Shown here: positions 1 to 38,124 of the stretch, piece after piece
How positions within the stretch are numbered: position 1 is the stretch's first letter
How the letters are laid out: the number at the start of each line of letters is the position of its first letter
From: Opitutales bacterium
GTDB lineage: Bacteria > Verrucomicrobiota > Verrucomicrobiia > Opitutales > Oceanipulchritudinaceae
Reading direction: 5' to 3'
NCBI GenBank assembly: GCA_007133065.1
Contig: SLNJ01000016.1
Span: forward strand, 1 to 64,000
Length of the DNA stretch: 64,000 bases
Position numbers and translations under genes: made by a program
The notes under the pieces: generated by a model
Databases searched by the model: none
Seen by the model: the letters and a program-made list of their open reading frames with translations, nothing else
Told to the model about the DNA's origin: nothing

Positions 1-1553
1 GGGCGCTCGTAGTAACGTTCAAACTGCTCCCAGGACGGAACCCTCACTTGCCGGCTATCGACCTTCAGGTTCTCAAGCATGTCCCATTGAAGATTCCGTG
101 CGAGGTACAGGTTCTTCTCCTCTCCCATGTAGGTCGGACGGAACGCGTCGCCCGGAGGCACTTCATCGAGGCTCGTGAGGACTGCGGCAGTCCGCATGAC
201 CCGGGCTCTCTCTTGCTCGGAGCCCCACATGATCCCGCGGTGCATCACCTGGCTGGGGTATCCGTCATCCGGCGTGCGGCTGATCGAGGAGATCAAAGAA
301 CGGTTCGCCGCCAGGTCGTAGGGGAAGTGAATCCGCATGTCGGCACTGTAATTGCTGTTTCGCGAATCGTACGCCTGGCCACCGCCCGGGGTCATGACCA
401 CCATCGAGCCGTTGCCCCACTCATTGTTGTCGCGCAAACTCGTGTCGCCCCAATGGTTGAGCGAGATCCGGTCCGCGATCGAGTCGTCGTGCGGCCCCGG
501 GGCGGGATCGACCTCGACGACCTGCACCGGCCCGACGACCCACCAGTCGCCGTTGGCGAACCGACCGACCGGGTACTCATCATCAAACGTCCAAGTAATG
601 CCGAACTGGCTCACCTGGGAGGCCATTTGCACCGGATTTGTGCTGAATGTCCGGACCTCGCTGGTCACCGGGTCACCGCCTTCGGGAGTCGCGGCCACGC
701 GATAGTAATAGGTGGAGTCGACGTCCAGGTCGTAGATCCCGATCGAGTGGAACGTACCGCCAGCATCGAGCGAATCGGCGCTCAGGGAAAGGTCGTTCTC
801 GGAGGGCCCGTATTCGACCGTCACCGATGCCGGCCCCGATGTCGACCAGGTCAGGTCGGCGGTGTCGTGGGTCGAGCGGGTTTCAATGGCGCTGAGAACC
901 AGATCCGGGTTGACATGCAGCGCAAAGAGCTGGTCGGGGGCACGGCCCCAGTCGTCGTCCATCGGACCCAAATCGAACGTCAGATCCTGCCGAATCGGCG
1001 TCGTTCCGGTATCGCCCCGGCTGTTGCGCACGATCCAGGCTTCAGCCTCGGCGGAATCCCCCGCGCCGAGTGAATCCTGCACATACAGGAAAAAAGTCGA
1101 AAACGGCCCGGATCCGGGATACTCAACTGTGGCGTGGAGCGTGCCGTCATCAACTTCCCAGTCGAGGATGTTGACGGGATCGCTCGCCGGCCGATCATCC
1201 ATCGGGTGTGCGATCGCCTGATTGCGGACCGCGCGCACGATGGTCGGCTTCAGAGTCCATTGCGGCTGCACGAATCCCCAGCTGAATACCCAGCCACCGT
1301 AGTCGGGCTGATGCCATATCCAGCCGATATCGAATGAGTAGAGATACTCGCTTCCGCCACCGGCATCGAAGGCGAATAGCCATCCGATGTCCTGCTCGTA
1401 TTTCCAGTCGCCGGTTTCGTAAATATAATTGAAAGCGCCGTGCTCGCCAGCGGTGAGGGCCGGCGCTGCAAACAGCGCGAGGCAGAGGGATGTGATTGCA
1501 AGCAGTCGCGAGAAGGGAGAGGCGCCTGCGCGTGAGGTGTTTCTGAGATTCAT
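1..1553 (-). CDS. Secreted protein with aromatic GW-rich N-terminus and FnIII-like domain (3' end cut off by window)
   Basis: Reading from ATG at 1553 the frame stays open for 517 codons to the window edge, so the C-terminus is missing. The product begins with a basic n-region and a hydrophobic core ending near AAPALTAG (about residues 15-36), a typical signal peptide, so it is exported. Residues about 48-85 are rich in Trp/Tyr/Gly (GWLFAFDAGGGS, then FDIGWIW), a style I associate with secreted Opitutae proteins. A stretch around residues 205-265 (VTVEYG, then STYYYRV) resembles a fibronectin-III/purple-acid-phosphatase N-terminal domain. The segment after it, starting FGITWTF, is not recognised. 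No catalytic motif is visible. Other frames here lack these features and are shadows. Function unknown; export is the firm part of the call. Confidence 0.75.
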   Translation of the reverse strand, partial: MNLRNTSRAGASPFSRLLAITSLCLALFAAPALTAGEHGAFNYIYETGDWKYEQDIGWLFAFDAGGGSEYLYSFDIGWIWHQPDYGGWVFSWGFVQPQWTLKPTIVRAVRNQAIAHPMDDRPASDPVNILDWEVDDGTLHATVEYPGSGPFSTFFLYVQDSLGAGDSAEAEAWIVRNSRGDTGTTPIRQDLTFDLGPMDDDWGRAPDQLFALHVNPDLVLSAIETRSTHDTADLTWSTSGPASVTVEYGPSENDLSLSADSLDAGGTFHSIGIYDLDVDSTYYYRVAATPEGGDPVTSEVRTFSTNPVQMASQVSQFGITWTFDDEYPVGRFANGDWWVVGPVQVVEVDPAPGPHDDSIADRISLNHWGDTSLRDNNEWGNGSMVVMTPGGGQAYDSRNSNYSADMRIHFPYDLAANRSLISSISRTPDDGYPSQVMHRGIMWGSEQERARVMRTAAVLTSLDEVPPGDAFRPTYMGEEKNLYLARNLQWDMLENLKVDSRQVRVPSWEQFERYYER

Positions 1554-33447: not shown

Positions 33448-33590
33448 TGACAGCGATACGGACCGCTTTACACTTGTGGTTCAACCCGAATTGATCAGAA
33501 TACTTCCGGTTTCAACGGACGAACCATGAGGGCCGGGGCCCTATGCGGCGGGCCCCTTGGCGCAACCGGACCACCGAACCTGTTCGACAC

Positions 33591-34298
33591 ATGCTCAAAT
33601 CCCTTCGCAATGCGTTTTTCTCCGGCCTGCTGCTGGTTGCCCCGGTCGGCGTAACGATCTTCGTCATCAACTTTCTCGTCGATCTGATCGGGCGGCCGAC
33701 CCGCGAGTTTTTCTTCTTTTTTCTTCCTCGCGAAGTGATTCGTGCCAATCCGTGGATTGGCGGGGTGCTCGACGTTCTTTCCACGTTGCTGGTGCTGGTG
33801 CTCATCACCATCCTCGGCTGGTTCTCCAAGCTGCTGATCGGACGGTTCTTCATCGAAACCTTCGAGCGGATCGTCACCAACGTTCCGTTCGTGAAAACGG
33901 TATATCTGACGGTTAAGCAGATTATCGACACCTTCAGCCAGCAGAAAAAGGCGGTTTTTCAGAAGGCCGTACTCCTTGAATACCCGCGCCACGGCATCTA
34001 TGCGATCGCGTTTCTCACGAGCGAGGGCAAAGGCGAGGTGCAACATCGCACGGATGAAGATGTCGTTTCCGTCTTCCTGCCCACAACACCCAATCCCACC
34101 AGCGGCTTTCTCCTGATGGTTCCCAAGCAAGACATCGTCTCGCTGCAGATGACCATCGGCGACGCAATGAAACTGATTATCTCGGGCGGGGCGGTCGTCC
34201 CTATTTTCCATCCGAAGACCGGCGAGAGCATCAGCGTTTCGACGACCAACCCGGCACTCGGACGGGCGGAGAGCTCCCCCCAAACAACTCAACCCTGA
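33591..34298 (+). CDS. DUF502 family membrane protein
   Basis: 235 aa from ATG 33591, where the typical MLKSLRNAFFSGLLLVAPVGVT begins (split at the membrane helix). The frame is open from 33543 but without similarity. Two TM helices (about 8-28 and 60-82) are followed by a soluble domain with VPFVKTVYLTVKQIID and FLPTTPNPTSGFLLMVP, hallmarks of DUF502. The function of this family is unknown; it is found in many bacteria and plant plastids/ER. No operon partner is evident. Confidence 0.88.
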   Translation: MLKSLRNAFFSGLLLVAPVGVTIFVINFLVDLIGRPTREFFFFFLPREVIRANPWIGGVLDVLSTLLVLVLITILGWFSKLLIGRFFIETFERIVTNVPFVKTVYLTVKQIIDTFSQQKKAVFQKAVLLEYPRHGIYAIAFLTSEGKGEVQHRTDEDVVSVFLPTTPNPTSGFLLMVPKQDIVSLQMTIGDAMKLIISGGAVVPIFHPKTGESISVSTTNPALGRAESSPQTTQP

Positions 34299-34410: not shown

Positions 34411-35031
34411 ATGCCGGAGTTTCTCGCCACCGAAGCCATCGTATTGCACAAGGCAGAACGCGGTGAGTCGTTCCTCGAATTCGGCGTGCTCAGCCCGGAA
34501 CACGGTCTGGTCCGCTTTCGGCAACGGCTCATGCACGGGACACCCTCCCGCCGACCCTCGCTCCCCGACTGGCTGGACCACCTCGATCTGAGTCTTCGAC
34601 GCACCAACGAGAAAACCCTCTGGTTCGTCGTCGACGCCCAGATCCACCATCGACACGTGAGAATAGCCCAATCCTACGAAGCGATGGAGAGCGCCGCCGT
34701 ACTCACGCGCCTGCTGCTGCGCAACCTCGACCACCTCGACTCCCGCACCGCTATATTCACCCTGCTGCGCGATGCACTCAACGCATGGGAATCCCGGGGC
34801 CTCCCGAGGGTCACGCTGCTCAAGGCCCTGTATCGATTCGCACGCGAGGAAGGATTTCCCGTCAAGGAGACATGGTGGCGACGGTTGCCGACCACGCTCC
34901 GCACCACAGCAGCACACCTCCTCAACGCCCCCCTGGCTCGAATTGACTCCACGCCGGAGGAGACGGATGCGCTGCTCGCCTCGCTCCAGGAATGGCTCCA
35001 CCGCGATGCCGGATTCCTGCCGGGAAAGTAA
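34411..35031 (+). CDS. recO: Divergent RecO-like recombination mediator
   Basis: 206 aa, somewhat shorter than typical RecO (about 240). The start EFLATEAIVLHKAERGES followed by FGVLSPEHGLVRF fits the RecO OB-fold opening, and the helical middle (LLRNLDHLDS, FTLLRDALNAW) fits the C-terminal helical domain. There is no four-cysteine zinc motif. RecO loads RecA onto SSB-coated gaps with RecR. The call rests on N-terminal pattern and length, and homology should be confirmed. Confidence 0.6.
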   Translation: MPEFLATEAIVLHKAERGESFLEFGVLSPEHGLVRFRQRLMHGTPSRRPSLPDWLDHLDLSLRRTNEKTLWFVVDAQIHHRHVRIAQSYEAMESAAVLTRLLLRNLDHLDSRTAIFTLLRDALNAWESRGLPRVTLLKALYRFAREEGFPVKETWWRRLPTTLRTTAAHLLNAPLARIDSTPEETDALLASLQEWLHRDAGFLPGK

Positions 35032-35189: not shown

Positions 35190-37559
35190 ATGCAAATCGA
35201 GTGGAGCGGCCGCACGGTGAGACTCAGTGTACGCGAGCTCGCCGAGTTCGATCCGGTGCCGGCGCATCCCGAGCGGCGCGGACAGCGTAACCGTTCCCGC
35301 CTCGCAGCCGGCCAACTCTGGCACAGGGAGATGCAGGCCATCGCGGACGCTGAAACGGACCGGGTGTTGTTCGAGCAGACCATGCGCGGACGTATCCATG
35401 CCCACCGCTGGACGTTTGACCTGCACGGACGGGTCGACCAGGTCGTTCACCGGAAGACGGATCTCCTGTTCCGGGAAGTGAAGAGCACGAGCCACCCACT
35501 GCCCGTGCCCCCGGACGAACTCCAGGCGCGGTATCCACACTACTTCCGGCAATTGGGAATCTACCTGGCGATGGGATCGCTCGACCCGGATTACGGGCGT
35601 CATCCGCTTGCGGGTGAACTCCTCTTCGTCGACATCCGCGATGGCGTGACCCAGATCGTGCCGATCAATCGCAATCAATTCACCGAAACCGATATCTGCC
35701 GGCGAATTGCCGGGTATCTGGAAGCCGGTCGAAGCTTGCGCAGGGCCGCGAGCGGCGCCCGCCCGCGGCCGGCGTTCCCCCGGTGGCGCGAGGGCCAGGA
35801 ACCGGCTCTCGACCGCCTGCGCGCGGCGTTCCAGGACGGCGGGAAGTCGATCCACTTGTTCGAAGCGCCAACCGGATTCGGCAAGACCGGCCTGGTCCTG
35901 CAGGCCGCACTCGAGTCGCTTCAAGCCGGCCGGGTTGAACGCATCCTGTACGCGAGCTCCAAGGGCAGCGGGCAGGACACGGTGCTCCAGCACCTCGACG
36001 GCATGCTCGATCCGGAGAACGGTCCACGGTACTATCGGATGCAGAGCCGACAGGAACACCGGCTCCGTTGCCCGCTCCCGCATTGTGGGCGGCGCGGCGA
36101 CTGTTACGAAGGGTTGACAGAGGCATGGAATCGCAATGATCGATCGCTCTGGGAGCTGATTCACGGCGGCAGCCCGGCGCGCGAGCAGATTTTCGAGTTC
36201 AGCGAACAGACCCGGATCTGCCCCTACGAAATATCCCGGGGCATCCTCGACCTCTCAGAGATCTGGATCGGCGACTACAATTACATCTTCAATCCCGGAA
36301 GCCGGCACGTCTTCGAAGCATGCCCCACATTCGATCCGGGGAAATCCCTGCTCATTCTCGATGAAGCCCATAACCTCGCGGAACGGGTGGCCCAGGCCTG
36401 GTCCTTTGTCTGCTGGCACGAAACATGGGTGAGCCTCAGTGGTGCAGCCCAGTTTGGCGGCTTTCCCGAGCCCCTGCGCGAGGCGATCGACGGCATCGTC
36501 GCATTCCTTGCTCAAGCCGGCGGTCGCGGCACCCTGTCCGGCGCGCGGCGATACGAGTGGATCGACCTCCTCGAGACCCTTGTCCACCGCCTCGACGACG
36601 GTGCGCCCGACCTGATCGAGGAGAACTGGGATCCGCTCTGGGAGTGCTTCCCAATGCTCAACCTCCTCAAGCATCCAGAGATGGATTCCCTCCTTTGGAG
36701 CACGAAACCCGGAGTTCTGCACCTGAGCTGCCTCGACGCAGCACCGGAAATTGCCGAGACGTTGCGCGATTACCGCTGCGTCCTCGCCATGTCCGCAACC
36801 CTCCCCCCATCCGACGACCTCACCCGGCAGTGGGGTACGGCTCGATCCGAATGCACCGTCCTCACCGGCGACGCCCCCTGGCGCGCGCACGCATACGAGG
36901 TGGGAATCGATGTGCGCGCCGATACCCGCTTGCGGTATCGCGATCGGCACTATCCGCTGACCGCCCGGACTGTGCTGAACCTCTCCGAGGCCTCGGCGCA
37001 ACCGATCGTCGTCTTCTTTTCCTCGTACCGCTACGCCGGCGCGGTTGATGAGTATATCCAAGTGATCGCACCCGGGTTCCCAACCGCCCTGCAACCGCGC
37101 GGACTCGAGACCGCCGCCCGCAATGCATTCCTCGATCAGTCCCTGCTCTCCGCGCGCGCCCTCCTGCTCGTTCTCGGAGGGAGTTTTGCCGAAAGCATCG
37201 ACCGGCTCGGGGAGTATGTGGACACCGTCCTGGTGGTCGGTCCCGCTCTCCCCGAAGTCAACCCGGTCCAGGAGTCACGAATGCGGCGCCTCGACGCCGC
37301 GGATCGGGACGCAGCCTTTCGCGAGGTGTTCATCCTGCCCGGCATCACGAAAATCAACCAGGCGCTGGGTCGTTTCGTTCGTGAGCCCGGACAAAAAGCC
37401 CGGGTCGTCCTGCAGGACCGCCGCTTCGCAGAGACTCCCTACCGCGACCTGCTAGCCCCGGAATACCGGAACGCCACCATCATCCGGAACGACGACCAAC
37501 TGACCGCGTGGATCGCGGCCGGCATCACCCGGGCCGAAGAAAACCGATTGCACGACTGA
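35190..37559 (+). CDS. Fusion of RecB/Cas4-type PD-(D/E)XK nuclease domain with XPD/DinG-like Fe-S helicase
   Basis: 789 aa from ATG 35190; upstream in-frame codons overlap recO and look like shadow. Residues 1-185 show the RecB/Cas4 nuclease pattern: H45, D83 (GRVDQ), E96-V-K98, and Q121-x3-Y125. Residues about 195-789 are an SF2 DEAH helicase: Walker A APTGFGKT (226-233), four cysteines C294, C299, C305, C344 placed like the XPD/DinG 4Fe-4S cluster, DEAH (391-394), AMSATLPPS and a motif VI-like QALGRFVREPGQ. It is probably a 5'-3' DNA helicase with linked nuclease for repair. Gene order recO-helicase supports DNA repair. Confidence 0.8.
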   Translation: MQIEWSGRTVRLSVRELAEFDPVPAHPERRGQRNRSRLAAGQLWHREMQAIADAETDRVLFEQTMRGRIHAHRWTFDLHGRVDQVVHRKTDLLFREVKSTSHPLPVPPDELQARYPHYFRQLGIYLAMGSLDPDYGRHPLAGELLFVDIRDGVTQIVPINRNQFTETDICRRIAGYLEAGRSLRRAASGARPRPAFPRWREGQEPALDRLRAAFQDGGKSIHLFEAPTGFGKTGLVLQAALESLQAGRVERILYASSKGSGQDTVLQHLDGMLDPENGPRYYRMQSRQEHRLRCPLPHCGRRGDCYEGLTEAWNRNDRSLWELIHGGSPAREQIFEFSEQTRICPYEISRGILDLSEIWIGDYNYIFNPGSRHVFEACPTFDPGKSLLILDEAHNLAERVAQAWSFVCWHETWVSLSGAAQFGGFPEPLREAIDGIVAFLAQAGGRGTLSGARRYEWIDLLETLVHRLDDGAPDLIEENWDPLWECFPMLNLLKHPEMDSLLWSTKPGVLHLSCLDAAPEIAETLRDYRCVLAMSATLPPSDDLTRQWGTARSECTVLTGDAPWRAHAYEVGIDVRADTRLRYRDRHYPLTARTVLNLSEASAQPIVVFFSSYRYAGAVDEYIQVIAPGFPTALQPRGLETAARNAFLDQSLLSARALLLVLGGSFAESIDRLGEYVDTVLVVGPALPEVNPVQESRMRRLDAADRDAAFREVFILPGITKINQALGRFVREPGQKARVVLQDRRFAETPYRDLLAPEYRNATIIRNDDQLTAWIAAGITRAEENRLHD

Positions 37560-37587: not shown

Positions 37588-38124
37588 ATGCCATCCGAAC
37601 GACGCATCGAAGCCGATGAAGTGCAGAAAGCCATCGAAAAGATGGTCGTGGACATCGCATCCCGGCACAAACATACAGACCCCCTGTATATCGTCGGGAT
37701 CGCCGATGGGGGCCTCACCCTCTCCCGGCGTCTGCAGGCCGGACTGGAGGAACGTCTCGGGCGGGAGATTCCATGCGGGATCGTGAACATCACGTTCCAC
37801 CGCGATGACATCGGACTCAAACCGATCCCGAAGATGTTCATCAAAACGGACCTCCCCTTCTACCTCGATGACTCCGCGGTGATCCTCGTCGACGATGTTC
37901 TGTTCTCCGGACGCTCGGCACGCGCCGCACTCAACGAGCTCTTTGACCAGGGTCGCCCCGATCGCGTCGAGCTCGCCGTCCTCTGCGATCGCGGCAACCG
38001 GAGGCTTCCGATTCAACCCGATTACGTGGGCTTGACCGTCGAGACAACTCCCCGACAGAATGTCCGGGCCTCGCTCTCCAATACCATTTCGACCGCCGAC
38101 CAAATCAGCATCTATTCCGAATGA
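37588..38124 (+). CDS. pyrR: PyrR-type bifunctional pyr regulator/uracil phosphoribosyltransferase
   Basis: 178 aa, normal PyrR length. The PRPP-binding loop VILVDDVLFSGRSARAAL (about 96-113) and VGIADGGLTLSRRL match PyrR, as does ITFHRDDIGL. In Bacillus it binds pyr mRNA with UMP to attenuate transcription, and it also has weak UPRTase activity. It overlaps pyrB by 4 bp. The gap of 28 bp behind the helicase gene leaves no room for a leader attenuator, so regulation here may work differently. Confidence 0.92.
   Translation: MPSERRIEADEVQKAIEKMVVDIASRHKHTDPLYIVGIADGGLTLSRRLQAGLEERLGREIPCGIVNITFHRDDIGLKPIPKMFIKTDLPFYLDDSAVILVDDVLFSGRSARAALNELFDQGRPDRVELAVLCDRGNRRLPIQPDYVGLTVETTPRQNVRASLSNTISTADQISIYSE

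Follow-up and report, generated by a model that had tools for sequence, protein, structure and literature searches.

EndoDinG-type nuclease-helicases of the Opitutales: an invariant nuclease site, a variable iron-sulfur cluster and frequent linkage to recO

Introduction

The window analyzed here (the whole stretch of DNA, 64,000 nucleotides, from an Opitutales bacterium) encodes a protein in which a nuclease domain precedes an XPD/DinG-type helicase, and it raises the questions of what such a fused enzyme does in the cell and how far that activity depends on the iron-sulfur (Fe-S) cluster of the motor. The role of the cluster in XPD-family helicases is not settled, with structure, DNA binding and redox sensing all under consideration (PMC12345164). 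E. coli DinG and archaeal XPD no longer work as helicases once the cluster is disrupted (PMC12345164), while S. aureus DinG and CasDinG function without it (PMC12345164; PMC10450177). The domain architecture itself is already known but little studied: a review names it EndoDinG, with Bdellovibrio bacteriovorus HD100 DinG as the example, and proposes a repair role, citing the endonuclease activity of the Bdellovibrio member as unpublished data (Cheng, 2025; PMC11981726).

The gene and its two domains

The features of the locus are collected in Table 1. The open frame of the nuclease-helicase reaches back to an ATG at 34992, which would give a protein of 855 residues. This extension would overlap recO, and the homologues begin at the methionine encoded at 35190 (M in 29/30 aligned sequences), which was therefore taken as the start. 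The full-length predicted model had a pLDDT of 88.4 and a pTM of 0.89.

Table 1. Features of the nuclease-helicase locus (positions in the window; residue numbers refer to the 789-residue protein)
Feature	Position	Strand	Basis or remark
DUF502 protein gene	33543..34298	+	PF04367, 119.7 bits; frequent upstream neighbour
Divergent recO	34411..35031	+	Ends 158 bases before the nuclease-helicase start
EndoDinG-type nuclease-helicase CDS, 789 aa	35190..37559	+	Frame, full-length homologues, full-length fold match to 9kqh
PD-(D/E)XK nuclease domain, residues 1-190	35190..35759	+	PDDEXK_1, conservation, fold
Nuclease residues H45, E62, D83, E96-x-K98, Q121-x3-Y125			
XPD/DinG SF2 helicase core, residues ~196-765	35775..37484	+	Pfam DEAD_2 and Helicase_C_2; folds
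Helicase motifs: Walker A GFGKT 229-233, DEAH 391-394, QxxGRxxR 724-731			
Fe-S domain segment with C294, C299, C305, C344	36069..36221	+	Cysteines lost in 20/65 Opitutales homologues
Phosphoribosyltransferase gene	37588..38124	+	Pribosyltran, 62 bits; downstream, heads pyrimidine genes

Homologues were drawn from two sources. In a related-genome set 40/55 genomes matched, one of which (G032) gave only the weak C-terminal match typical of ordinary DinG, leaving 39 carriers; several of these hold split fragments, and the 29 full-length rows were aligned with the window protein, giving 30. To these were added named loci found by patterns around DEAHNL and PALPE, 79 in number, from which seven fragments (L047, L065, L069-L072, L111) were excluded and five duplicates removed, giving an alignment of 97 rows.

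The C-terminal part matches Helicase_C_2 (3.8e-21) and DEAD_2 (9.7e-12), and XPD/DinG structures match this part only, with Z scores of about 20-26. Pfam and fold thus bear out both the helicase class, XPD/DinG-type SF2, and the nuclease-then-helicase order that a first-pass annotation had proposed. K232, D391, E392, H394, Q724, R728 and R731 are present in 97/97 aligned sequences, an invariance that in the named loci is partly by construction, since motif-II and PALPE stretches served as search patterns.

The nuclease residues were never used in this way. Pfam PDDEXK_1 scores 24.4 bits on residues 1-202 alone and 21.5 bits on the whole protein (cut-off 22), and it is detected at E <= 0.001 in 22/30 aligned members; because the match is weak, the domain was examined by fold and conservation. 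Folded alone with 29 homologues in the input, residues 1-192 gave a pLDDT of 91.6, and comparison of this isolated domain with the PDB (VIA-align) returned 9kqh (Z 16.0) and SSO0001 of Sulfolobus (4ic1; Z 13.7), followed by MGME1, Cas4 (in Cas4-Cas1-Cas2), AddAB, AdnAB, EXO5, RecE, lambda exonuclease and Dna2 at values down to Z 8. These matches settle the assignment to the PD-(D/E)XK fold and the RecB superfamily. E62, D83, E96, K98, Q121 and Y125 are invariant in 97/97 aligned sequences and H45 is kept in 96/97; together with G80, the first six make up the only 7 invariant columns among the 190 of the domain. Judged from the alignment, the conservation of the nuclease residues is far beyond chance.

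Profile, fold and conservation therefore support the earlier proposal of an N-terminal PD-(D/E)XK nuclease, here assigned to residues 1-190, and its motif residues are conserved in homologues. H45, D83, E96, K98, Q121 and Y125 stand where that proposal had placed them, and E62, which belongs to the same set, had been overlooked. The label "Cas4-type" was too strong: a Cas4-like cysteine cluster was looked for in residues 1-195 of the 97 sequences, and no cysteine column is common to most of them (mean 1.3 cysteines per sequence; the window protein has one, C170).

Relation to known nuclease-helicases

Among the PDB entries listed, only 9kqh aligns across both parts of the protein (model 7-760, Z 26.3, 714 residues; Foldseek E 5.8e-44; phmmer E 4.3e-26). 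This entry, released on 2025-12-03, is Finegoldia magna DinG with ssDNA and ADPNP; the likeness in sequence and fold is full-length, at ~20% identity and in a different phylum. A literature search, outside which most subscription papers and preprints lie, found no paper on 9kqh. As described in the review, EndoDinG proteins share an N-terminal PD-(D/E)XK domain whose active-site residues are H, E, D, E and K, followed by MD1, Fe-S, Arch and MD2 (PMC11981726). The window protein agrees with them also in its four Fe-S cysteines and its intact ATPase and helicase motifs, and the full-length match to 9kqh together with the domain plan places it in EndoDinG. Since this is a published subgroup with a solved homologue, the fusion is not new, and the window protein is an ordinary member of its kind. 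The less expected part is a variable Fe-S cluster beside an invariant nuclease, together with frequent linkage to recO.

Other enzymes resemble it in part. Dna2, AddAB, AdnAB and RecBCD likewise join a RecB-superfamily nuclease, with which the N-terminal domain aligns, to a DNA motor, but their motors belong to SF1. Dna2, AddB and EXO5 carry a nuclease Fe-S cluster, for which the window-type domain has no conserved cysteines. The ExoDinG proteins of Firmicutes, such as S. aureus DinG, likewise place a nuclease before a DinG helicase, and some of them lack the Fe-S cluster; their nuclease is of the DnaQ type (DnaQ-DinG), whereas the N-terminal domain of the window protein is PD-(D/E)XK. The ExoDinG nuclease is a 3'-5' exonuclease domain (PMC12345164). 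CasDinG of type IV CRISPR systems is a DinG helicase that has lost the Fe-S cysteines and yet remains active as a helicase (PMC10450177); it differs from the window protein in having no nuclease domain and in being CRISPR-linked.

Distribution in the Opitutales

In a sample of 288 genomes from the phylum, EndoDinG (E <= 1e-60) is carried by 40 of the 44 Opitutales genomes, by none from the other orders of the class, and by 7 elsewhere in the phylum; it is near-universal in the Opitutales. The closest named relatives come from Opitutales/Opitutae and other Verrucomicrobiota MAGs, and distant two-domain homologues are found in Bacillus, Paenibacillus, Clostridia, Spirochaetales, Cyanobacteria, Acidobacteriota, Pseudobdellovibrio and Microbulbifer. 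In the quick tree of 97 rows, the 65 Opitutales sequences group together as a single long-stemmed clade, as expected for descent inside the order. Viral origin or spread was rejected: viral contigs scanned with the window protein yielded no relative, the 5 matches obtained on scanning them with the alignment all run from residue 196 onward and lack the nuclease part, and phage (16) and plasmid (15) records match at 21-31% identity, with no close mobile copy. At one locus the full gene is followed, ~4 kb farther downstream, by a second, short EndoDinG-like stretch with 43% identity (L068:14458-14718).

Variation of the Fe-S cluster

By its cysteines the window protein probably carries an Fe-S cluster, and in this respect the annotation of four Fe-S cysteines holds; for its relatives in the order it does not hold throughout. 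C344 is kept in 32/32 rows from outside the Opitutales, where the segment holds 4-6 cysteines. The 65 Opitutales rows fall into three classes: 35 with 4-5 cysteines, 10 with three including C344, and 20 with at most one. In these 20 rows C344 is replaced by P (19) or D (1), and the segment corresponding to residues 289-343 measures 45-52 residues as against 53-60 in the other 45, without overlap, so that the loss comprises the cysteines and 3-10 residues of the loop. The catalytic residues of nuclease and helicase are intact in 20/20 cluster-less rows. No other cysteine column marks these rows, save positions 126 and 361 (10/20 each), and a replacement cluster is not evident. The three-cysteine rows (L004, L005, L006, L010-L013, L034, L039, L058) have lost the first Fe-S cysteine and kept the rest; this class may represent an intermediate stage or rely on a different ligand.

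The loss is specific to EndoDinG and not genome-wide, given that the ordinary DinG paralogue keeps its four cysteines. This was the case in 7/7 genomes with a cluster-less EndoDinG (of 12 such genomes, the seven with a second match listed were examined) and in 3/3 cluster-plus genomes (that of the window, G008 and G012). The review describes the CCCC motif as conserved in EndoDinG, in contrast to the 20/65 Opitutales members without it, and its main text gives cluster-less forms only for CasDinG, CasDinG-HNH and some ExoDinG and contains neither "Opitutales" nor "Verrucomicro" (PMC11981726). A wider search for an Fe-S-less EndoDinG found none in the literature that it covered, with supplementary tables and most subscription papers and preprints lying outside it.

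To count the losses, two trees were used: a careful tree of 62 rows under a mixture model, which omits the Fe-S columns and eight near-identical rows, and a quick tree of 97 rows. Parsimony requires 6 changes on the careful tree (5-7 in bootstraps, and a single change in 0/200) and 5 on the quick tree. The backbone is poorly resolved, and if well-supported branches alone are counted, the careful tree requires just one change and the quick tree three. A single loss was also tried as a candidate: the 14 cluster-less rows held together are not rejected by the AU test (p = 0.061). With bootstraps calling for 5-7 changes but an AU p of that size, several losses of the cluster are likely, not proved.

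Gene neighbourhood and probable function

The first-pass annotation had noted a recO-like gene directly upstream, and a RecO_N match in that gene confirms it. The match is weak (16.7 bits, under the Pfam cut-off of 27) but is the only one in the genome (E <= 0.1), and RecO_N exceeds the cut-off in just 3/55 related genomes; Opitutales RecO is so divergent that automated annotation will often miss it. Synteny was traced with a profile seeded on the recO of the window, over the 57 distinct loci whose upstream flank reaches at least 2.5 kb. A same-strand recO lies within 3 kb upstream in 33/57 loci and within 300 bases in 26/57, while none is nearby in 24/57. The linkage is thus common without being obligatory, and related loci do not count as independent cases. 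Where recO was found, it stands 0-30 bases from EndoDinG in 20/37 loci. No clear tie between Fe-S loss and recO synteny emerged (recO within 3 kb in 26/42 cluster-plus and 7/15 cluster-minus loci). In the traced loci DUF502, ybeY, 7TM-HD and phoH often lie farther upstream and pyrimidine genes downstream, the first of which in the window is presumably pyrR (the names pyrR, pyrB and pyrC were assigned by us from sequence and context). The gene setting is housekeeping.

Near-universal presence in the order, frequent recO linkage and housekeeping neighbours favour repair as the likelier role, as had been proposed. We consider it likely that the window protein, an EndoDinG joining an XPD/DinG SF2 helicase to a RecB-superfamily nuclease, is a chromosomal repair enzyme working with the RecO pathway of gap repair and recombination. 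In such a scheme the motor would load onto single-stranded DNA, travel presumably 5' to 3', and open flaps, gaps or forks; the nuclease on its N-terminal side would cut the displaced or threaded single strand; and the processed gap or end would be left for RecO, which might anneal strands or help in RecA loading.

Of the alternatives, the one that fares best, though we regard it as unlikely, is that the enzyme acts at replication forks, Okazaki flaps, R-loops or RNA, in the manner of Dna2 or ExoDinG, and that linkage to recO reflects shared regulation only. By fold, the N-terminal domain resembles those of Dna2, EXO5 and MGME1, and in Listeria a DinG exonuclease targets ribosomal RNA (PMC12774634). 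Against this, no gene stands close upstream more often than recO, at spacings that resemble those of a shared transcript, and among the genes traced none of RNA metabolism regularly lies close by.

Less probable still is a defence enzyme that degrades invading phage DNA, a role that had earlier been thought possible and to which the neighbour survey, with its housekeeping genes, lends no support. The model for it would be the anti-phage system Hna, which likewise combines a DinG-like SF2 helicase with a PD-(D/E)XK nuclease (PMC13381803) and whose structure 9yhn was also matched by fold (Z 15.3, 452 residues aligned). Hna differs, however, in the reversed domain order, with a C-terminal nuclease, in its defence role and in having no Fe-S cluster (PMC13381803), and an order-wide presence with conserved housekeeping neighbours is unlike a defence island. 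The PADLOC typeIV_DinG model (PDLC01439) matches the window protein at 6.2e-56, but it is a general DinG profile: it matches 30/30 EndoDinG members, and the ordinary DinG of the same genome (L001:1438-3471) scores higher still, at 368 bits vs 188 for the window protein. The match is thus no evidence of a type IV CRISPR system, and a type IV CRISPR reading is unsupported.

A further reading makes the protein a helicase only, its nuclease domain being a relic that binds DNA or has a structural role without catalysis. The whole-protein Pfam score slightly under the cut-off and the existence of a pseudo-nuclease DinG subgroup, pExoDinG (PMC11981726), could suggest this, but it is very improbable in the face of motif residues that occupy six of the domain's only seven invariant columns.

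Returning to the RecO-linked repair enzyme, the cluster is gone in about one third of the sampled Opitutales homologues while the catalytic sites are kept, and it therefore seems not to be indispensable to the selected function. By analogy with S. aureus DinG and CasDinG, which work without a cluster, cluster-less EndoDinG proteins, whose Walker A and DEAH motifs are intact, would be expected to work as motors. Orthologues with and without the cluster but with both active sites unchanged are natural matched pairs for the study of Fe-S function, and linkage to recO offers a first point of entry for a genetic study of EndoDinG function. More tentatively, and with somewhat more doubt than belief, we suggest that EndoDinG may be the dedicated helicase-nuclease of the RecO pathway in the Opitutales, from which the Fe-S cluster was lost several times independently by loop shortening while the active sites stayed under strict selection. 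If so, the cluster would serve a regulatory or redox purpose that the nuclease-helicase can dispense with, and would not be required for catalysis, which is testable with cluster-plus and cluster-minus orthologues.

EndoDinG is not the sole nuclease-helicase of its genome, which also encodes an AddB-like protein (a 983-residue frame with PDDEXK_1 at G000:C79, called AddB by length and domain); a reading of EndoDinG as a replacement for AddAB is unsupported. In one other genome (L146, G036:C1) PDDEXK_1 matches five frames of 315-332 residues about equally well, and these may be copies of a multicopy mobile gene.
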